From Hyphomicrobiales bacterium (GTDB taxonomy: Bacteria > Pseudomonadota > Alphaproteobacteria > Rhizobiales > Xanthobacteraceae): a DNA stretch of 64,000 nucleotides. The notes under the pieces are model-generated. The model did no database searches. It had not been told where the DNA came from and saw nothing but the letters and a program-made list of their open reading frames with translations. The translations under genes and the position numbers were made by a program. Shown here piece after piece: positions 54,628 through 63,018 of the stretch; within the stretch, counting starts at the first letter, position 1; each line of letters begins with the position of its first letter. The stretch lies in contig JAFKKG010000024.1 of NCBI GenBank assembly GCA_017305715.1, positions 62,001 to 126,000 of the forward strand. The letters are read 5' to 3'.

Positions 54628-55476
54628 TTACTGCGTCTTCGCCACCCGCGGCGGCGCGGCCGTGGTGACAAAACTCGTCGCCTCCAGCGCGGCCGGGCCG
54701 AACGGGGTCGGGATCGTCATGCGGAATGGAACCAGGATGCGCGTGCCGGCGATCGGCACGAAGGCGATCTCGATGTTGCGCTGGCTGGCGAGATATTTGA
54801 TCACGGGCCGGTCCGGGATATAGCCCGCCACCGGCGTGAAATAGACCGCGCACACCAGCGCCGGGCCATGATAGCCGCGCTCGGCCTTGACGTTTTCCAT
54901 GCGCTTGTAATCGAGCTTGAGGTCGTAGCGCAGCCGCCCGTCGAAGATGCCGGTGCCGACGCGGCAGGCCTCCGGCGTCAGCAGATCGCCGGTGCCTGGC
55001 ACGCGGATCATGGTGCCGGTCATCGGATCGAGCACGTTCTTGCGATGCGCTTCGGTGACCACGATGCGGTCCGGATCGACCGGCGGTTCCGGTTCGATCG
55101 AAAAATCCTTGATGCCGCCATTGGCGATCACGAGGCGGACGGTCTCGGATTTCTTCGAGGTCGTGGTGGTCGCGGTATAGGCGTTGGCGATCAGCCCGCC
55201 ATTGACGACGCGGCCCTGCGACGCGCCAGACCCCTTGCCGCCGGAGAACGCCTGCAGCAGCCCGGAGGAACCGCCCTGGGCGGAGGCGGAAAACGCGTCA
55301 TCGCCGATTTCGATGGTCCAGGAGCCCTTGCCCACGGGAATACCCGACAGCGTCGCCTCATAATGGGCATCGAGCCGGCCCTGCGCGGACGCCTCCAGCG
55401 GCGCCAGCCACAGCAGCACGCCGGCCGCAAAGCCGCCCAATAGGCCTATCCGAGACGAAACGGCGCGTGTGGTCAC
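54628..55476 (-). CDS. DUF3108-domain exported protein
   Basis: A 282-residue protein with a signal peptide (hydrophobic GLLGGFAAGVLLWLAPLEAS near 12-31, cleavage after ASA). The mature part matches DUF3108: DAHYEATLSGIPVGKGSWTI near 36-55, then a long beta-rich domain ending in IEIAFVPIAGTRILVPFRMT. Function is unknown; some relatives have roles in envelope or polysaccharide deposition. It is divergent from rpmB with about 340 bases between them. Confidence 0.85.
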   Translation of the reverse strand: MTTRAVSSRIGLLGGFAAGVLLWLAPLEASAQGRLDAHYEATLSGIPVGKGSWTIEIGDDAFSASAQGGSSGLLQAFSGGKGSGASQGRVVNGGLIANAYTATTTTSKKSETVRLVIANGGIKDFSIEPEPPVDPDRIVVTEAHRKNVLDPMTGTMIRVPGTGDLLTPEACRVGTGIFDGRLRYDLKLDYKRMENVKAERGYHGPALVCAVYFTPVAGYIPDRPVIKYLASQRNIEIAFVPIAGTRILVPFRMTIPTPFGPAALEATSFVTTAAPPRVAKTQ

Positions 55477-55817
55477 CTGGATGACGGTCCTGCTGGCGCG
55501 AGCTCTTGTTTATTTAAGACGAAATATCCGGCAAACAACGCGTCGCCGCACCCGGCGGTGGCTCAATCCGCCGAGGCTATAGATGTCGGCGGGGATTGCG
55601 GCCTTTATAGGGTGCTAACGCCTTGGAAAGCCTTCCAAACCGCCAATTCCGCGGGTCCGGGCTTGCGCAAAATTGCGCGCAAAACCCCGCAAAACCTTGA
55701 CGCAACAGGCCCATCGCCCTATACGTCCGCGGTTCCTGGAAATGGACATGATTTTGGACCCCCGCGCGGCGCCATGATGCGCTGCCTGGTTGCGGGGATG
55801 GAAGAGGATTTTTTGCG
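55477..55817. other. Divergent intergenic region DUF3108 / rpmB
   Basis: No gene recognised. The part nearer 55818 should hold the rpmB promoter and leader; an AGAGGAT ribosome site precedes its ATG. No conserved leader structure was identified. Confidence 0.5.
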
Positions 55818-56126
55818 ATGTCTCGGCGCTGCGAACTGACGGCCAAGGGCCCCCAGGTGGGCCACAAGGTGAGCCACTCGAACATCAAGACCAAGCGGCG
55901 CTTCCTGCCGAACCTGGTCAACGTCACCTTCATCTCGGACGCGCTCGGCCGCAACGTGCGCCTGCGCGTCTCGACCAATGCGCTGAAGAGCGTCGACCAC
56001 AATGGCGGCCTCGACGGCTATCTCCTCAAGGCCAAGGCCGACGTGCTGTCGCCCCGCGCCCTCGACCTGAAGCGCGCGATCCAGAAGAAGGTCGGCAAGC
56101 CGGTGTACGAGAAGAAGGCGAGCTGA
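55818..56126 (+). CDS. rpmB: 50S ribosomal protein L28
   Basis: A 102-residue L28. It begins [20 protein letters not shown] and continues with [18 protein letters not shown] and the conserved C-terminal [20 protein letters not shown]. Length and motifs match alphaproteobacterial L28 with its C-terminal extension. A component of the large ribosomal subunit. It is followed by a repeat and a clear terminator, and marks the left flank of the AT-rich island. Confidence 0.97.
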
Positions 56127-56131
56127 GATTG

Positions 56132-56178
56132 AATCTCCCTCCCCCCGCTGTTGCGGGGAGAGGGTCGGGGTGAGGGGC
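56132..56178. repeat. Dispersed palindromic repeat, family A
   Basis: CTCCCTCCCCCCGCTGTTGC with a GCGGGGAGAGGG arm, between the rpmB stop and its terminator. Confidence 0.75.
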
Positions 56179-56214
56179 CTCTCTCCGAGCAAAGACTGCC
56201 AAAGAGTTTTGAAC

Positions 56215-56247
56215 GGCTGGGTCGAAGGACCCGGCCATTTTTGTTTG
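56215..56247 (+). terminator. Rho-independent terminator after rpmB
   Basis: A 9-bp stem GGCTGGGTC/GACCCGGCC with a GAAG loop, followed by a T-rich tract (ATTTTTGTTT). It closes the rpmB unit just ahead of the island. Confidence 0.9.
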
Positions 56248-56376
56248 GTGGGAACCTTGATTGTTGGCGAACCCAAGAGAAGCAAATCTTCTCAATAGCT
56301 TAAGGCCAAATCTCGCGACACCATGTACCTCACTCATGGTACCTGCGCGGGATTTCTCTACCGAAAGTTTAGCAAA

Positions 56377-56412
56377 TCAGCGATACTAGTACGCTAATTA
56401 GCTGATACGCTT
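56377..56412. promoter_or_regulatory. Operator-like repeats upstream of the XRE gene
   Basis: The element TCAGCGATACTAGTACGCT (a near palindrome centred on CTAG) is followed by GCTGATACGCTT. It ends 16 bases before the XRE start codon. Similar TCAGCG-led repeats occur before the ubiquitin-like gene and before the minus-strand operon of the island. Confidence 0.6.
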
Positions 56413-56427
56413 ACAAAAGGATATCCA

Positions 56428-56757
56428 ATGAGTCTTGATCTGTCGTCCTTCGGCCGGACGATTTCGTCCGCACGTAAAGCGATTGGCCTAAGTCAGAAGG
56501 AATTGGCAGCAAAAATAAAAAAGGAAGACGGAGAACCTATTACTCCGCAGTACTTGAATGACATTGAGCATGATCGGCGAAGCCCGCAGTCCGATCATCT
56601 CGTTAGTGAATTTGCGAAGGTGTTAAAGATAGACACATATTCCCTTTACGCGGCGGCTGGGATGCTTCCTGAGCAAGACAGAAAGCTACTGAAGAAAGCC
56701 AGTCCAGCCGAAGCAAAGGATGCATTTGTCGCGTTTAGACGGAAACTCACAGGATAA
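56428..56757 (+). CDS. XRE-family helix-turn-helix regulator
   Basis: A 109-residue DNA-binding protein. The HTH covers about residues 7-68: RKAIGLSQKELAAKI (helices 1-2), then ITPQYLNDIEHDRRSPQSDH (recognition helix and wing-side loop). The C-terminal part is helical and charged. AAAGGATA precedes the ATG. Its stop overlaps the ImmA/IrrE-type gene by 38 bases, so the two form a coupled pair like ImmR-ImmA, where the protease inactivates the repressor. Operator-like repeats lie immediately upstream, suggesting autoregulation. Confidence 0.9.
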   Translation: MSLDLSSFGRTISSARKAIGLSQKELAAKIKKEDGEPITPQYLNDIEHDRRSPQSDHLVSEFAKVLKIDTYSLYAAAGMLPEQDRKLLKKASPAEAKDAFVAFRRKLTG

Positions 56758-57469
56758 GCGCTTGGTCAAATACATTCGAGACGATTTTCACGGCTTTCCT
56801 GAACGACCGCACTACGAGCCCAAAGAACTCGAAATGCAGTTTGAGCGGCTCGTGATAGATTTTCTTAGAACGAAGTATGGGAAAGTTGAGTTTCCTTTCA
56901 AAACAGACGACATCACACTGTTGATCGAACGAGACGTATTGGACCTTGACCAATATGCTGATTTGACACCGTACGGTGATGACGTCGAAGGCATGACGCA
57001 ATTTAAGCGCGACGCAAAACCCGACGTCTTTATTTCTAAGAACGTTCATCGACACGAAAATCGACTTCGAACGACCCTAGCTCACGAATATGGACACGTC
57101 ATTCTGCATAGTTATTTGTTTAAGCTTGGACAACGAAGACTTCGATTAGGACTGAATCAGTCAGCGAGCGCGATCTACTGCAAACGCGGCACCATGCTTG
57201 GCGCAAAGAAGGTAGATTGGATGGAATGGCAAGCAGGTTTTGCCTCGGGCGTAGTATTGATGCCCAAAACTTACGTTCACACTGTAGTGGCACCGATTCG
57301 CCAGCGGTTGGGAGTGTTTGGCGCCGCCGAACAGGGCACGGATGCCGGGCATCTGATGATTCGCGCAGTGATGAATTCATTTATGGTCTCGCGTGAAGCC
57401 GCCATCGTGCGGCTCAAGGTGCTGAATATGCTGGGTTCGATGCCAGAACAGCGCTCTCTCTTTAGCTAA
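56720..57469 (+). CDS. ImmA/IrrE-family metallopeptidase
   Basis: A 249-residue zinc peptidase-like protein. The HExxH motif is HEYGH near residue 116 in TTLAHEYGHVILHSYLFKLG, and a later QAGFASGVVLMP is the third-ligand region seen in ImmA/IrrE proteins, though the usual EANxFA Glu reads differently (EWQAGFAS). The start at 56720 overlaps the XRE gene by 38 bases; later ATGs would shorten the protein. It probably cleaves or otherwise relieves the neighbouring XRE repressor on a stress or infection signal (family-based inference). Confidence 0.87.
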   Translation: MHLSRLDGNSQDKRLVKYIRDDFHGFPERPHYEPKELEMQFERLVIDFLRTKYGKVEFPFKTDDITLLIERDVLDLDQYADLTPYGDDVEGMTQFKRDAKPDVFISKNVHRHENRLRTTLAHEYGHVILHSYLFKLGQRRLRLGLNQSASAIYCKRGTMLGAKKVDWMEWQAGFASGVVLMPKTYVHTVVAPIRQRLGVFGAAEQGTDAGHLMIRAVMNSFMVSREAAIVRLKVLNMLGSMPEQRSLFS

Positions 57470-57517
57470 AAATTTTTCGCTTGACTAAGTTCGGTTTGCG
57501 ATCGCATGATACGTCAA

Positions 57518-57551
57518 TCAGCGTATCGGCGTATTAGCAGATCGGCATATC
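57518..57551. promoter_or_regulatory. Operator-like repeats upstream of the ubiquitin-like/E2 gene
   Basis: TCAGCGTATCGGCGTATT is followed by a second ATCGGCATAT. The decamer ATCGGCRTAT appears at 57525-57534 and 57541-57550, 16 bases apart. The element ends 17 bases before the start codon and resembles the one at 60755-60780. Confidence 0.65.
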
Positions 57552-57567
57552 AACGGAGATTGTGACT

Positions 57568-58416
57568 ATGAGCGTCGAATGGAACGAAGATAGAGGCGAA
57601 TCGCGCCAATCGGGTCCGGGGCTTTGCGGCTGTGGATCCGACAGCGAGCAGGCTGCAAAGACAGAAATTGAAAAAGCTCAGAGAGAAATTGGCCGAGCTG
57701 AAAAAGAGATCGAGCACGGTATTCGTGACCTCAACGAAGCTCGCATTCACCTCGACAAGGCAGAGAGAGACCTCGAAAGGGAACACCACGAAGAAGGTGT
57801 TCATTTCACCGTCGATGGTGAGCCGTTCGAAACCCGTCATCCCGAGCAAACACCAAATTTCATAATCAAAGAATACAGCGATCGCGACCCAGCAACTAAC
57901 TATCTCGTAAAAATCCAGGGTCACGGCAAAGACGTGAGTTACAAGGATAAAGGCAATACCCAGATCACGATTGAAGACTGCGATGCCTTCCAGATTATCT
58001 CTGTCGGCCCTGCGCCCGTATCAGATGGTCGCAGCAAGACCGGGGTCGATGCGTTTATCGCCGGACTGCAGGATGTCGGTTGCAAGCCGGAGATCGTTCC
58101 CAACAAGTCCGACCATGTTGCATTTACCTACGAAGTGCCTACAGGCAAATACGCGGGCCAATCGATCAACATTGGCCTTGTCGTCCCCCCGGATTTTCCA
58201 CTTACCCCGCCGGGGGGCGTGCACATTTCGTCCTTAATTCATCCGAACAAGCCCGGCGGCAGTCATCCGACCGGGGGCGTTCATGATAGTTCCTTCCAGG
58301 GCTACCTCGGCCATTCGTGGCAATACTGGTCTCGCCCCTTCAACGAGTGGAGTAAGACCAAAAGGACAATCACCGCTTATTTTGGTCATCTCTGGAAGCT
58401 GTGGGACACGCAATGA
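57568..58416 (+). CDS. Coiled-coil + ubiquitin-like domain + E2-like domain fusion
   Basis: A 282-residue three-part protein. Residues 27-75 form a charged coiled coil. Residues 77-148 match the bacterial multiubiquitin fold (FTVDGEPFETRHPEQTPNFI ... NYLVKIQGHG ... FQIISVGP). Residues 157-282 match the prokaryotic E2 family E (GLVVPPDFPLTPPGGVHISS, then HPTGGVHDSS, YWSRPFNEW and RTITAYFGHLWKLW). HPN is at 225-227, but no Cys follows; Cys172 is the only Cys in this domain. The ATG at 57568 is 9 bases after GGAG (a GTG at 57562 is possible). Its end overlaps the next gene as ATGA. Likely acts with that E1/JAB protein to attach or process a ubiquitin-like tag, perhaps against phages. Confidence 0.85.
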   Translation: MSVEWNEDRGESRQSGPGLCGCGSDSEQAAKTEIEKAQREIGRAEKEIEHGIRDLNEARIHLDKAERDLEREHHEEGVHFTVDGEPFETRHPEQTPNFIIKEYSDRDPATNYLVKIQGHGKDVSYKDKGNTQITIEDCDAFQIISVGPAPVSDGRSKTGVDAFIAGLQDVGCKPEIVPNKSDHVAFTYEVPTGKYAGQSINIGLVVPPDFPLTPPGGVHISSLIHPNKPGGSHPTGGVHDSSFQGYLGHSWQYWSRPFNEWSKTKRTITAYFGHLWKLWDTQ

Positions 58417-59825
58417 CCCGTGCCGCCCTCAGTGTCGCCATGACTGAAACGCTTGGCGCGTCGGCGCAGCAGCATCTGTTACGTACCGACCGCCAAGAGG
58501 ATTTGTGTTTCGCCCTGTGGCGTCCGAGCACCGGGCAGACGCGCACCACTGCATTGATTTATCGCCTCCTTGTACCATTTTCTGGCGAGCGCAGCGTGCA
58601 CGGCAATGCAAGTTTTGAATCGCGGTATTTTCAACGGGCGCTCTCCGAAGCAGTCACTGATGGCGCGGGTATCGCGCTGATGCATAGTCATCCGCATGGC
58701 TGTCAGTGGCAAGGTATGAGCCCCGACGACGTCGACACCGAAAGCGGTCATGCGCCGGCCGTTTATGGTGCAACGCGGTTGCCGTTCATTGGGTTGACCA
58801 TCTCGGGTGACCGCGCATGGTCTGGTCGATTCTGGACGCGAACGGGTCCAAGAAAGTACGAACGACAAGATTGTGCGACAGTGCGGGTGGTGGGTGAACG
58901 CCTAAAAATCACATACATGGACCGGCTCGCTCCACCACCGACGGAAACCCTCGCTCAGATCAGAACTGTTTCTGCTTGGGGCTCACAGAAGCAGGCCGAC
59001 CTGACCCGATTGCGCGTTGGCTTGGTGGGCGCCGGAAGCGTTGGTGGATTTGTCGCTGAGGCTGCTGCGCGCACTGGTTTTGAAGATATCACCGGCATCG
59101 ACTTCGACGTCGTCGAAGAGAAAAATCTCGATCGTCTCCTGTTCGCGACACGGCGCGATATCGGGCTTCCAAAAATTAACGCTTTGGAACGACATCTGCT
59201 GGACCGAGCGACAGCACAAAGTTTTCGATTCTTGTCTATTCCCTGTGCTGTGTATGAGAAGGAGGCTCTTCTCGCCGCGCTCGATTGTGACCTGATCGTC
59301 TCTTGTGTCGATCGTCCATGGGCGCGTCACGTTTTAAATCTCATCGCTTATGCGCATCTAATCCCTGTCGTCGACGGGGGAATCGCGGTAAGACGCAATC
59401 GCCAGGGTGAATTTGCCGCAGCTGATTGGCGCGCCCACACGATCGGCCCCGGCCGTCGTTGCTTAGAATGCATCGGGCAGTACGATTCTGGTCACGTGCA
59501 GATCGAACGCGATGGTTATCTTGAGGATCCAACGTACATTGAACACTTGTCGGCCGGCCACCCTCTCAAAGCGCGCGAAAACGTGTTCGCTTTCTCGATG
59601 AGTTGTGCCAGCTTGCAGTTCAATCAGATGCTAAATTTTGCTCTCGATCCATTAGGTCAAGCTAACTCCGGTGAACAGCTTTATCATTTTGTCGGTGCCC
59701 GCATGGAACCCGCGCTGTTCGAACATTGTCAGGCCGACTGCATGTTCCCCAAGATCGTCGCTGCAGGCGACGAATGTCCCTACATTTTGGCTAGTAAACG
59801 TCCCGTCGGCTCGGCAACGAGGTAA
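58413..59825 (+). CDS. JAB/JAMM isopeptidase + ThiF/E1-like adenylyltransferase fusion
   Basis: A 470-residue protein. The N-terminal JAB domain (about 20-170) has the JAMM metal set HSH (His91, His93) and SPDD (Ser103, Asp106), with a likely Glu59 in SGER. The C-terminal ThiF/E1 domain (about 198-470) has GLVGAGSVGG (203-212), GIDFD near 228-232, RRDIG (247-251) and Asp300 in SCVDRPWAR. CxxC at 350/353 with C439, C443 probably binds zinc. Start ATG 58413 overlaps the upstream stop. It should adenylate a ubiquitin-like C terminus and cleave conjugates or precursors, combining the E1 and deconjugase roles of BilC and BilD in one chain. Confidence 0.88.
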   Translation: MTRAALSVAMTETLGASAQQHLLRTDRQEDLCFALWRPSTGQTRTTALIYRLLVPFSGERSVHGNASFESRYFQRALSEAVTDGAGIALMHSHPHGCQWQGMSPDDVDTESGHAPAVYGATRLPFIGLTISGDRAWSGRFWTRTGPRKYERQDCATVRVVGERLKITYMDRLAPPPTETLAQIRTVSAWGSQKQADLTRLRVGLVGAGSVGGFVAEAAARTGFEDITGIDFDVVEEKNLDRLLFATRRDIGLPKINALERHLLDRATAQSFRFLSIPCAVYEKEALLAALDCDLIVSCVDRPWARHVLNLIAYAHLIPVVDGGIAVRRNRQGEFAAADWRAHTIGPGRRCLECIGQYDSGHVQIERDGYLEDPTYIEHLSAGHPLKARENVFAFSMSCASLQFNQMLNFALDPLGQANSGEQLYHFVGARMEPALFEHCQADCMFPKIVAAGDECPYILASKRPVGSATR

Positions 59826-59869
59826 GCTGTAAGAGTTACACCGTCACGAAAAGCGTTCACCGACCATCG

Positions 59870-60436
59870 TCATTTTTTATGTTTTAATGGATGCTTCTGG
59901 TCTTTGTAGCGATCGGTCTTGCGTGAACCATAAGCCATAGAATTCGGGACAGGAGATTTCAATTCAAGAAAAGTTAGTTGGCATGGTCTATCTATGAGAG
60001 GCGTAAGCTTGATCGGTATTTGACCGTGGTTGGCGATTTCGAGGACTATTGGACCGCTCCATCCAGGCTGAATCCACGGCGCTGTTTGGTGCATACTGAG
60101 ACCTACGCGCGCGTATGTGCTTCTACCTTCAACAAGTCCAATGAGCGATTTAGGAATAGTGATTGACTCATGAGTTAGCGCGAGAACCAACTCACCGGGA
60201 ACTAGATCGAAATAGTCTCGCTCTTCTGTATTCCAAAGGTTTAGATCGCCCAACGATCCCAAACCGCCAGCAACGGAAAGAGTAATCCCGGTAATATCTT
60301 TTCTATAGGTGGTGAACTGACGGCCTAATCGTAAGTCAATCGAGGCTTCACCCCACTGAGTTTCCTCCAGCGCAGGGGAGAACTGTATTTTCCCATTCTC
60401 CACCTGTCGGCGAAGATCCTTTTGGGAGAGGATCAT
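59870..60436 (-). CDS. dCTP deaminase-like protein
   Basis: A 188-residue member of the dCTP deaminase/dUTPase superfamily. The fold markers are GEASIDLRLGRQFTTYR near 29-45 and EGRSTYARVGLSMHQTAPWI near 103-122. Ser106, Arg110 and Glu133 sit in the same spacing as the E. coli Dcd catalytic residues Ser111, Arg115 and Glu138, so deamination of dCTP is plausible. Dcd homologs can defend against phages by draining dCTP, which fits the island. It is the second gene of a minus-strand pair (ATGA overlap at 60433-60436) and convergent with the E1/JAB gene. A duplicate housekeeping Dcd cannot be excluded. Confidence 0.85.
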   Translation of the reverse strand: MILSQKDLRRQVENGKIQFSPALEETQWGEASIDLRLGRQFTTYRKDITGITLSVAGGLGSLGDLNLWNTEERDYFDLVPGELVLALTHESITIPKSLIGLVEGRSTYARVGLSMHQTAPWIQPGWSGPIVLEIANHGQIPIKLTPLIDRPCQLTFLELKSPVPNSMAYGSRKTDRYKDQKHPLKHKK

Positions 60437-60711
60437 CCAGTAGCCTTTCGGACTAACGAGCTTGCAATGTCGGCTAAGCCCGTTGTCGTGAAAAACGATC
60501 CAGCAAGTTTTACGGTCAAGTATGTAGGCGAAACGTTTTTAACTTCGGCAAAAATGTATTGGTCGCTGCCCTGCTGAACTATTGAGTCGGTCTTGGCAAA
60601 GCCTGACACAATTCCACCCTCGGTAGTTACGGTTACCAGCTTTTCCCCCGGAAATGCCCCCGCTTTTACATTGGTCGGAACGAGAACCATTTCGCCAGGA
60701 CGTGGGGCCAT
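60433..60711 (-). CDS. Small beta-rich hypothetical protein in the dcd-like operon
   Basis: A 92-residue protein starting MAPRPGEMVLVPTNVKAGAF. It looks beta-rich (EKLVTVTTEGGIVSGFAKTD, then SPTYLTVKLAG) with a short C-terminal helix, and has no signal peptide or membrane span. No family was recognised. A GGGAGAA ribosome site precedes the ATG, and its end overlaps the dCTP deaminase-like gene by 4 bases, so they are co-translated. It may sense or modulate its partner (inference). Confidence 0.7.
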   Translation of the reverse strand: MAPRPGEMVLVPTNVKAGAFPGEKLVTVTTEGGIVSGFAKTDSIVQQGSDQYIFAEVKNVSPTYLTVKLAGSFFTTTGLADIASSLVRKATG

Positions 60712-60754
60712 GCTTTTCTCCCTGAGGTAGAGGACGAGGACATTACGGAGTGAT

Positions 60755-60780
60755 TCAGCGAATCGGCGATTCGTGAATCG
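60755..60780. promoter_or_regulatory. Operator-like repeats upstream of the dcd-like operon
   Basis: TCAGCGAATCGGCGATTC followed by GTGAATCG, 44 bases ahead of the minus-strand start at 60711. Its first 16 bases closely match the element at 57518 (TCAGCG-ATCGGCG core). Two copies of CCCCGCTGT follow at 60785-60803. Confidence 0.6.
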
Positions 60781-61003
60781 TTTTCCCCGCTGTCCCCGCT
60801 GTTTTGACGGGAAAAGTCAGTTTATATGCGAAAATTTCGCCCCACAAGAACAAACATAGAACATGATTTATAGAGAATTAGCCGTCGAATAGACTGGGAG
60901 GCAAGCGCAATACGCGCACACGATATATGGCTCTCCCTTGCCTGCCCTACCGTAACTGAACATCCTGTGATTGAGACGGTATCCCATCGACGCGGAGGGA
61001 TTG

Positions 61004-62287
61004 GTGAGCAGAAACATCGTCATCTGCTGCGACGGCACCGGCAATGAAATCTCCGAAAACATCTCCAACGTCCTGAAGCTCTATCGCTGCCTGCGCAAAA
61101 CCGAAAAGACCGAGCCGCGGCAACTGGTGTTTTACGATCCCGGCGTCGGCACGCTGTCGCGGCCGGACCCGTGGCACAAGCTCGCGCAGGATTTTTCCGC
61201 CATCTGGGGGCTCGCCACCGGCTATGGGCTCGATGACAATGTGCTCGCGGCCTACGCCTTCCTGGTGCAGAACTGGCGCGAGGGCGACCAGATCTATCTG
61301 TTCGGCTTTTCGCGCGGCGCCTACACGGTCAGGGTGCTGGCGGGGCTGATCCACAAGATCGGGCTGATTTCCCCCGAGCAGGCCAATCTCGCAGGAAGCG
61401 GACTGATCGCCTACAAGGCGTTCTCCAGCGACGAGGCGCCGCGCTTGCGCGAGAAATTCCGCGGGCTCACGGATGCCGGCGCCGCCGAGGAGGCCGAGCC
61501 GCCCTCGCCGTTCGACAACGCCGCGCAGTTCGCGCGCATCACCTCGTCGCGCTGGCCCGTCATCCGCTTCGTCGGCGTCTGGGATACGGTGGCGAGCGTG
61601 ATCGTGCCGCGGGCCGACCGGTTCTATCTCCCGAGCCTGGAAGAACTGGCCTGGACGCTGCAGAACCCGAGCGTGCAGACATTCCGGCAGGCGATCTCGA
61701 TCGACGAGCGGCGCTGCATGTTCCGCCTCAAGAAGTGGGACGACCCGCAGACCTACAAGCCGGTCCGCTTCAACGACATCAACAACACGCCGCAGGACAT
61801 CTTGCAGGTGTGGTTTTCAGGCGTGCATTCCGATATCGGCGGCGGCTATCCCGAAAAGCAATCCGGCTTGTCGAAATATCCGCTGCTCTGGATGATCGAC
61901 GAGGCCGAAAAATCCGGTCTCAAATTCAACCACGCCAATGTCAACCAGCTCGCCTGGGGCGTGCCCCGCAAGGGCAGCCCGTTCTCCTACGTCGCGCCGG
62001 ATGTCGCCGCGCCGCTGCACCAGTCGCTGACCGGTGCGTGGTGGCTGCTCGAATTTTTGCCGAAGCTCGCGACGTACAAGGAGTGGCCGCAGCGGCAGGT
62101 GGCTTTCGGAGTCTACATCCCCGACGGCGAACCGCGCCTGATCCCGGAGGGCGCCGTGATCCATGAATCCGTGGTGAAGCGGATGGCGGAGATCAGCGAT
62201 TACCGCCCGGTGAATCTGCCGGCGACATACGAGACGTGGCCGATGCCGGTGAAGCCGGAGCATGTGGAGATGCCGGCGGAGGTGTGA
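61004..62287 (+). CDS. DUF2235 alpha/beta-hydrolase (Tle1-like)
   Basis: A 427-residue protein of the DUF2235 family, which includes type VI secretion phospholipase effectors of the Tle1 group. It begins SRNIVICCDGTGNEISENIS and carries the nucleophile elbow FGFSRGAYTVR near residue 103, then DIGGGYPE (His/Asp loop) near 275. No signal peptide or T6SS adaptor is seen, and no immunity gene is next to it, so a housekeeping lipase-like role is possible. GGAGGGA sits 5 bases ahead of GTG 61004, which fixes the start. It is GC-rich, unlike the island to its left. Confidence 0.87.
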   Translation: MSRNIVICCDGTGNEISENISNVLKLYRCLRKTEKTEPRQLVFYDPGVGTLSRPDPWHKLAQDFSAIWGLATGYGLDDNVLAAYAFLVQNWREGDQIYLFGFSRGAYTVRVLAGLIHKIGLISPEQANLAGSGLIAYKAFSSDEAPRLREKFRGLTDAGAAEEAEPPSPFDNAAQFARITSSRWPVIRFVGVWDTVASVIVPRADRFYLPSLEELAWTLQNPSVQTFRQAISIDERRCMFRLKKWDDPQTYKPVRFNDINNTPQDILQVWFSGVHSDIGGGYPEKQSGLSKYPLLWMIDEAEKSGLKFNHANVNQLAWGVPRKGSPFSYVAPDVAAPLHQSLTGAWWLLEFLPKLATYKEWPQRQVAFGVYIPDGEPRLIPEGAVIHESVVKRMAEISDYRPVNLPATYETWPMPVKPEHVEMPAEV

Positions 62288-62321
62288 GGGCCGAGCAGCG
62301 AACCACGCGAACAGTATGTTC

Positions 62322-62451
62322 CCTCCCCCCTTGCGGGGGAGGGCTAGGGAGAGGGGTTCTCACGGGCAGTCTCGCTTGGAGCCACCCCTCTCCCCCACCT
62401 CGAGAGCGAGCTTCGCTCGCCTCGGACCCCCGCAAGGGGGGAGGGAGCAGA
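62322..62451. repeat. Dispersed palindromic repeat, family A
   Basis: Begins CCCTCCCCCCTTGCGGGGGA and ends CCCCGCAAGGGGGGAGGGAG, with inner GAGCGAGCTTCGCTCGC hairpin. Nearly the same inner hairpin recurs at 63019-63142. Confidence 0.85.
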
Positions 62452-62544
62452 CCGTTTGCGCGGCTCACCTCTCAGTTCTGATTTACAGAATCAATGTCAA
62501 GCCCCAAAATAAAAAATATTTCGCTTTTCCGCAATGGCAAATCA

Positions 62545-62960
62545 GGGCTAGGACCTTGCCCATCCCGTCCTGGTCAGAAGGGCGTCGGCCGTCGTCACGG
62601 ACGTTGGGCGGGGAGCGGTGGACGCTGAGGTTGTCGCCTGACGCGCGCAGCTGAAGCGTACGGCAAAGACGTGTGGTCCTGACGCCGCGTTGCTGGCGTC
62701 CATGCACCTGGGGGCATCTGACTTCCCAGGGCGCGACGGAGGCAAAAGAGCCGTTCTCCGGGGAGAGCACGTTATAAGCCGTAAAGCCATCGCGCAGGGA
62801 ATGTCGGATGTTCTCCGCTGCCCTGTATGCTCGTGTGCAGCTTTCTTAGCACAAACCGCACACGAGACCGCGGGTGCAGCGCGCATCCGGCATTCCCTGC
62901 GCCCTCGATTTGGAGAGGGCGGAACGAAATTGAAAACCTCGGGCGAAACATGCCGCGGGA
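62545..62960. repeat. Non-coding long repeat of Bradyrhizobium type
   Basis: Short frames here read as peptides such as LCRTLQLRASGDNLSVHRSP and AHEHTGQRRTSDIPCAM, which I recognise as translated pieces frequently mis-annotated as hypothetical proteins in Bradyrhizobium genomes. No true coding pattern is seen. I regard it as a dispersed repeat; the limits are approximate. Confidence 0.5.
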
Positions 62961-63018
62961 ACGCGGAGGTGTGTGCGTCGATGATGAGCACCATGCGTGC
63001 CGCACGAATAGTCGGCTC

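Follow-up and report, generated by a model that had tools for sequence, protein, structure and literature searches.

A complete Bub operon encoding two polypeptides

The window studied here is a stretch of 64,000 nucleotides from the 7.45 Mb genome of a Hyphomicrobiales bacterium (contig JAFKKG010000024.1, positions 62,001 to 126,000). Between positions 57568 and 59825 it carries two overlapping genes, bubAB and bubCD, that form a complete operon of the Bub (bacterial ubiquitination-like) type in an already known two-polypeptide form. We read this operon, together with a CapH/CapP-like repressor-protease pair located upstream, as cargo of a defence hotspot flanked by rpmB and a DUF2235 gene, with the working proposed below, and assign this reading as a whole a probability of about 0.78. 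The gene pair provides a simple version, with two polypeptides and a single ubiquitin-like (Ubl) domain, of a recently characterised pathway for study.

The bubAB gene (57568..58416, forward strand, 282 amino acids) encodes a coiled coil, a Ubl domain and an E2-like domain, as delimited by the open reading frame (ORF), Pfam, a predicted model (m143bda9edf1f) and structural alignment. On the forward strand, a long N-terminal helix seen in the model (residues 24-73, 57637..57786) is followed by a BubA-type beta-grasp Ubl domain (about residues 76-152; 57796..58023 for residues 77-152), a PVSDG junction (residues 150-154, 58015..58029) and a BubB-type E2-like domain with a serine in place of the cysteine (residues 159-282, 58042..58413). 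The next gene, bubCD (58413..59825, forward strand, 470 amino acids), overlaps bubAB through an ATGA and encodes a JAMM peptidase fused to a ThiF/E1 domain, as indicated by Pfam, profile and fold matches. This fusion is homologous to BubCD (profile E-value 2.8e-41, fold E-value 8.5e-34, template modelling score 0.79). Its JAMM domain covers approximately residues 1-170 (58413..58922, forward), where alignment picks out E29, H91, H93, S103 and D106, and its E1 domain approximately residues 178-450 (58944..59762, forward), with a GxGxxG motif, R241, K254, D300 and zinc-type cysteines at positions 350, 353, 439 and 443. A preliminary description of this DNA had proposed the same domains and the ATGA overlap, and had placed all four functions on two polypeptides. 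Pfam, the model and the structural alignment confirm the domains, the set of Ubl, E2-like, E1 and JAMM is complete, and structure prediction, which had been put forward as a way to refute the proposal, returned the Ubl and E2 folds. PADLOC does not name the system, because its sole match to gene 1 is chance-like (DndD, 0.022) and its matches to gene 2, E1-E2 models only, lie over the E1 part.

Relationship to characterised systems

The preliminary description had related the two genes to Bil systems. However, the closest solved relatives by sequence are Citrobacter BubCD for gene 2 and BubB for the E2 domain, and by this measure the system is Bub, not Bil. Solved Citrobacter structures comprise BubCD (9ea4/9ea5), BubB (9eae) and BubA (9ea8/9eav), and PDB titles name a Citrobacter BubCD(D104A/Y370F)-BubB-BubA(155-229) complex. 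On a Citrobacter braakii plasmid (L105), a 362-residue Ubl-E2 protein is followed by BubCD and then by a gene annotated as DUF6527; residues 2-229 of the 362-residue protein correspond to the Citrobacter multi-ubiquitin chain, residues 153-229 to the BubA chain and residues 228-362 to the BubB chain. Because the BubB chain is numbered 240-359 in the PDB where aligned, which fits a single BubA-BubB precursor, the characterised Citrobacter system very likely also consists of Ubl-E2 plus JAMM-E1. The fusion had been taken as the mark of a possibly little-described variant; this is not supported, as the Citrobacter plasmid has Ubl-E2 plus JAMM-E1 and polyUbl-E2 fusions beside JAB-E1 were noted by Iyer et al. 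2006 (PMC1779556).

Like the window, the Citrobacter locus has one ORF for Ubl and E2 that overlaps by 4 bases with a second for JAMM and E1, a W-S-R serine in the E2, an HSHP motif with a downstream Asp in the JAMM domain, a tyrosine in the E1 (Y370, aligned with Y375 by L-INS-i) and two regulator-type genes upstream, which by analogy with operons described in PMC13373217 may be CapK/CapS. It differs in having a match to a chain with three beta-grasp stretches where the window shows a single Ubl that follows a long helix, Ubl chains ending in Gly229 where the window junction reads PVSDG, no counterpart of the first pair of zinc-type E1 cysteines (350/353), and a DUF6527 gene where none was found at the window, which has CapH/CapP-like genes of its own. 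The DUF6527 partner gene is also present in L066, L067 and L068; a profile built from two sequences gave no match in window positions 55001-63000 up to an E-value of 1, nor in the ORFs of loci L013-L065, some of which are short contigs, up to 0.1.

The JAB-E1 operons described by Iyer et al. 2006 (PMC1779556) contain between one and three Ubls, and in some species the polyUbl is joined to an E2-like domain that these authors regard as inactive. Their type 6e (polyUbl / inactive E2 / JAB-E1) resembles the window in its JAB N-terminal to the E1 and in an E2-like domain that lacks the cysteine and is at times fused to the Ubl; it lists a zinc-finger partner, and none was found at the window so far as the DUF6527 search covers it. 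A Roseomonas mucosa plasmid locus (L102) shares with the window the order Ubl-E2 then JAB-E1 in two genes as well as divergent HTH and ImmA/IrrE genes, but belongs to another Bub subfamily, with VQDG at the junction and no cysteines at the positions of 350/353. Bil (BilABCD) has the same four components, Ubl, E2, E1 and JAMM deconjugase, but as separate genes and with a cysteine E2 (PMC11354881). At the level of its clade, the window system is set apart by the single Ubl behind a long helix, the lack of a detected DUF6527 gene and the serine-ended Ubls of most unfused relatives, features that we do not claim to be unreported.

Another Bub operon is present in this genome (G000:C2:82000-93000; L066:4853-8242). 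It comprises a separate Multi_ubiq Ubl ending in ...INPGRD, a Prok-E2_E protein (E-value 3.6e-32), an E1 frame, a DUF6527-like gene and a ClpP-like SDH-type serine protease gene, with a Fic gene upstream. No PDB match to this second Ubl was obtained up to an E-value of 10.

Conserved serine and tyrosine at the predicted active sites

Genome contigs were scanned with the gene 2 alignment through two short patterns derived from six close sequences, so that the 53 loci recovered, spread over many phyla, sample one clade. The JAMM-E1 alignment has 54 rows (the window, L003-L007 and 48 loci), among them near-copies such as L048 and L060; L013 and L014, which repeat L006 and L004, the broken or short L018, L062 and L064, and the distant L066-L068 were left out. 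E29, H91, H93 and D106 of the JAMM domain and R241, K254, D300 and Y375 of the E1 domain are present in 54/54 rows, S103 in 52/54 and the four cysteines in 53-54. In the E2 alignment, likewise of 54 rows with the window included, the column of S255 (motif WQYWSRP, codon 58330..58332, forward) holds serine in every row and cysteine, as in the catalytic CEHH of Bil E2, in none. A cysteine elsewhere within -35 to +7 columns of S255 occurs in three rows (L050, L052, L054). S255 is also retained in the E2s of Citrobacter, Roseomonas, L066, L067 and L068, and in a 28-row E2 alignment that includes the second copy of the same genome only S255 and one glycine are invariant. An ordinary E2 activity, as assumed in the preliminary description, is thus not supported; because the cysteine is gone and S255 is invariant, conservation suggests a serine chemistry at this candidate active site. 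The pair D240-S241 (HDS in the window) had been considered as the E2 nucleophile and was replaced by S255, as it is kept in the six close sequences but not in the wider set.

The candidate acceptor of the E1 is Y375 (codon 59535..59537, forward), which pairs with Citrobacter Y370 in the L-INS-i alignment with Citrobacter, Roseomonas, L066 and L067. S395, another candidate acceptor (52/54 rows), was dropped as it is Asn or Thr in other subfamilies. The abstract of Ye et al. is said to describe Bub as acting through oxyester intermediates.

The C-terminus of the Ubl

To our knowledge, the conjugated end of beta-grasp modifiers is a glycine. In 37 of the 41 standalone Ubl ORFs, in contrast, the last residue is serine (35 ending in ...VS and two in ...TS); the other four end in ...VG, ...VA and ...VSGR or are represented by one doubtful ORF. 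Judged from the ORFs, the Ubl of most standalone relatives therefore ends in serine as encoded. The sequence continues as ...VSD in all seven fused ORFs, the window and its five close relatives, and the six Bradyrhizobium BubAB proteins, the window among them, read VSDG at the junction. Citrobacter BubA chains end in ...VNNG229 and the next chain starts at about 230. Structural alignment matches window residues 77-152 with BubA 155-229 and places S152 on G229, in a segment of low model confidence (predicted local distance difference test (pLDDT) below 50 at 150-153); sequence alignment, in contrast, places G154 on Citrobacter G229. G154 occurs in all six Bradyrhizobium proteins and not in L015, L017, L018, L019 or L022. 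From pLDDT, the relatives and the Citrobacter ends, the JAMM cut is predicted between S152 and D153 or between G154 and R155, and the mature Ubl would end at either Ser152 or Gly154. We tentatively suggest, while holding it somewhat more likely wrong than right, that the window belongs to a multi-phylum Bub clade in which a serine at the C-terminus (...T/P-V-S), instead of a glycine, serves for activation and conjugation of the Ubl, with Tyr (E1) and Ser (E2) as carriers and no DUF6527 partner, and hence with neither a glycine tail nor a cysteine carrier. The clade sharpens the question to whether a ubiquitin-like modifier can work with a serine C-terminus.

History and distribution of the fusion

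Ubl and E2 are encoded in one ORF in 7 of the 53 loci and in separate ORFs before JAMM-E1 in 41; in the other five (L041, L055, L058, L061, L064) the Ubl was not found or the locus is cut. In a 49-row tree that comprises 46 loci, two outgroups and the window, the eight fused rows all fall in one nine-row clade (support 96/96), together with the unfused L016. The fused/unfused label requires two changes, as few as which were reached in none of 500 shuffles, and one fusion followed by one later split, or two fusions, would account for the pattern.

A gene 1 relative is present in 6 of 197 genomes of kin, own genome included, the other five being 49-51% identical. At an E-value of 0.001, PF14462 matches in 4 of 385 genomes of the class, again including the own genome, three of them above the cut-off. 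Relatives of gene 2 occur on 157 plasmid records, all at less than 60% identity. None of the 67 viral-contig stretches that matched a pattern encodes a relative, and two phage records match gene 2 weakly, over the E1 part only.

A CapH/CapP-like pair and operator-like repeats upstream

Two genes precede bubAB on the forward strand. A CapH-like XRE/HTH repressor (56428..56757; Pfam HTH_3 7.3e-8; PADLOC HTH_VI 3.9e-9, capH 1.9e-4) adjoins a CapP-like M78 (ImmA/IrrE-type) metalloprotease whose HEYGH motif conforms to HExxH (56720..57469; Pfam Peptidase_M78 3.9e-7; PADLOC capP 1.2e-10). With L036 and L060 excluded, 28 of 51 loci have a member of the blastp cluster containing the L013 M78 protease nearby (clustering by single linkage, the identity of other members not being profiled). 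Of 544 Bub operons in PMC13373217, 219 adjoin CapW or CapH plus CapP.

Operator-like repeats lie before the XRE gene (56393..56411, an inverted copy of 57520-57538 at 16 of 19 positions), before bubAB (57513..57538) and before a gene for a 92-residue protein (60750..60768, a direct copy of 57513-57531). They were compared with 200 dinucleotide shuffles of regions picked after the repeats had been seen, with no correction for the picking. The repeat shared by bubAB and the 92-residue gene was matched in length by 0/200 shuffles at both two and three mismatches, that shared by the XRE gene and bubAB by 0/200 at three, and that shared by the XRE and 92-residue genes by 21/200 at two and 5/200 at three. 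In L013 and L014 the promoters of the XRE gene and of bubAB show similar stretches, with no shuffle control.

The operon lies in a variable site that holds defence genes in relatives

The left flank is rpmB (ribosomal protein L28, 55818..56126, forward, named from its sequence), which was found in 40/40 same-genus genomes searched, own included, and aligned in 12/12 fetched loci. The right flank is a DUF2235 / Tle1-like hydrolase gene (60971..62287, forward; PF09994 2.8e-84), present in 9 of these 12 loci, each of 9.3-9.5 kb starting at the left side of rpmB and taken from the better rpmB matches, not at random. The island between them has a GC content of 0.52 against 0.64-0.66 in the flanks, and no alignment of more than 100 bases to it was found in any of the 12 loci. 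The interval is variable in the genus. In six of the 12 loci we scanned ten cargo proteins chosen by eye as likely defence genes, and all ten have a PADLOC match: GajA and GajB (L095), HamA and HamB (L096), Drt8 and PDC-M55C (L091), IetA and IetS (L094), IetS (L100) and a type II helicase (L090). These Gabija, Hachiman, DRT8, IetAS and helicase-type genes point to a defence hotspot, and the island setting claimed in the preliminary description is borne out by both the GC content and this cargo. With the known defence genes that it holds in relatives, the site is the strongest argument for a defence role, albeit an indirect one. No publication on the rpmB-DUF2235 site was recognised by title or abstract start among the literature matches listed, and the site invites a search for more defence systems in the genus. 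In L090 (1994-4956) the DUF2235 gene is split around the type II helicase cargo gene, with its 5' part inverted.

Proposed working and alternative explanations

DNA damage or infection would activate the M78 protease, which would remove the XRE repressor from the operators of its own gene, of bubAB and of a deaminase gene pair located downstream. By analogy with Citrobacter, the JAMM domain may cut the BubAB precursor between Ubl and E2, freeing the coiled-coil-Ubl and the E2. The E1 domain, whose motifs are present, would adenylate the Ubl C-terminus, after which the Ubl may be handed first to the E1 at Tyr375 and next to the E2 at Ser255, two conserved residues, as oxyesters and not cysteine thioesters. 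Finally, the Ubl would be attached to a target, from which the JAMM domain could release it. The system probably serves in defence against phage or stress.

Several observations weigh against parts of this reading. The capP profile, that of a protease with an ssDNA sensor part that cleaves CapH, is matched at 32-150 of 242 only, the repressor scores better with HTH_VI than with capH in PADLOC, and the repeat shared by the XRE gene and bubAB is not significant at two mismatches (38/200 shuffles as long). The HMMER alignment sets Citrobacter Y370 on window H383, not on Y375; this placement would imply a lost Tyr, H383 is His in 41/54 rows, and the L-INS-i placement on the invariant Y375 was preferred. 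Citrobacter G229/E230 is a PDB construct boundary, and we infer a natural cut there. Two published views also count here, and each lends itself to an alternative. The E2-like domain, which lacks the active-site cysteine and is termed inactive by Iyer et al. 2006 (PMC1779556), may be a dead, RWD/UEV-like scaffold with no other task than to hold the Ubl, while the E1 passes it straight to targets. A scaffold need not keep a serine, and the invariance of S255 in 54/54 rows and its retention in Citrobacter-, Roseomonas- and L066/L067/L068-type E2s make this unlikely. Also against a scaffold, the canonical E2 cysteine presumably falls within about one residue of S255, by an ungapped back-count from aligned ends that uses the cysteine numbers of human E2s. 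The other view concerns purpose: according to PMC13373217, whose authors consider a global stress role, no phage protection has been demonstrated for Bub operons, and the operon may serve as a stress module or toxin-like module, or as a regulated modification pathway, with no relation to phage. DNA-damage control would fit both possibilities. Bub is listed in a SUMO review (PMC12687455) with systems apparently active in phage defence, and against a purpose unrelated to phage stand the integration site, which in relatives is occupied by Gabija, Hachiman, DRT8 and IetAS genes, and the patchy presence in kin (6/197 genomes), so that we regard it as doubtful.

Two further explanations fare worse. 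A compact form of Bil with a cysteine-based E2 would provide the same four functions, and the best sequence match of the Ubl profile is a chain named Ubl-BilA (8u38, E-value 0.0035). That entry is itself listed as a bacterial multi-ubiquitin domain protein, however, and the serine at the E2 site in 54/54 rows, the BubCD and BubB matches of gene 2 and the E2 domain, and the fusion of JAMM and E1, whose counterparts BilC and BilD are separate in Bil (PMC11354881), make this explanation very improbable. A metabolic sulfur-carrier system (ThiF/MoeB with ThiS/MoaD), whose E1 superfamily and four zinc-type cysteines are indeed found here, is scarcely conceivable: none of the 25 NCBIfam models listed for gene 2 reaches its cut-off (ThiF, for example, 58.3 against 275.25 bits), and the JAMM fusion, the E2 partner and the island setting do not fit it. 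A metabolic context had been named in advance as grounds for abandoning the preliminary description, and the context is not metabolic.

Neighbouring genes and minor observations

Downstream of bubCD and on the reverse strand lie a dCTP deaminase-like gene (59870..60436; TIGR02274 2.7e-41), considered accessory cargo, and upstream of it the gene for the 92-residue protein (60433..60711), whose family was not assigned (a weak NCBIfam dUTP diphosphatase match, 0.039; no Pfam or PADLOC match up to an E-value of 1). This pair was rejected as a fixed part of the system, since among L013-L065 a deaminase relative lies near L018 and L065 only. With the operator-like repeat of bubAB at its promoter, the pair may belong to the same regulon.

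Variation was also seen in bubCD. The gene is split into two ORFs in L018 (5989-7488) and L062 (5998-7553), and both pieces match the profile. At the C-terminus (window residues 453-470), the proteins of five Bradyrhizobium relatives extend roughly 25-30 residues further; several of the longer ends look amphipathic (...FQRISRALKRLFIG-like), and such an end is missing from the window protein. Finally, a gene that by eye resembles a sigma factor adjoins the Ubl gene in five loci (L030, L033, L044, L051, L054).
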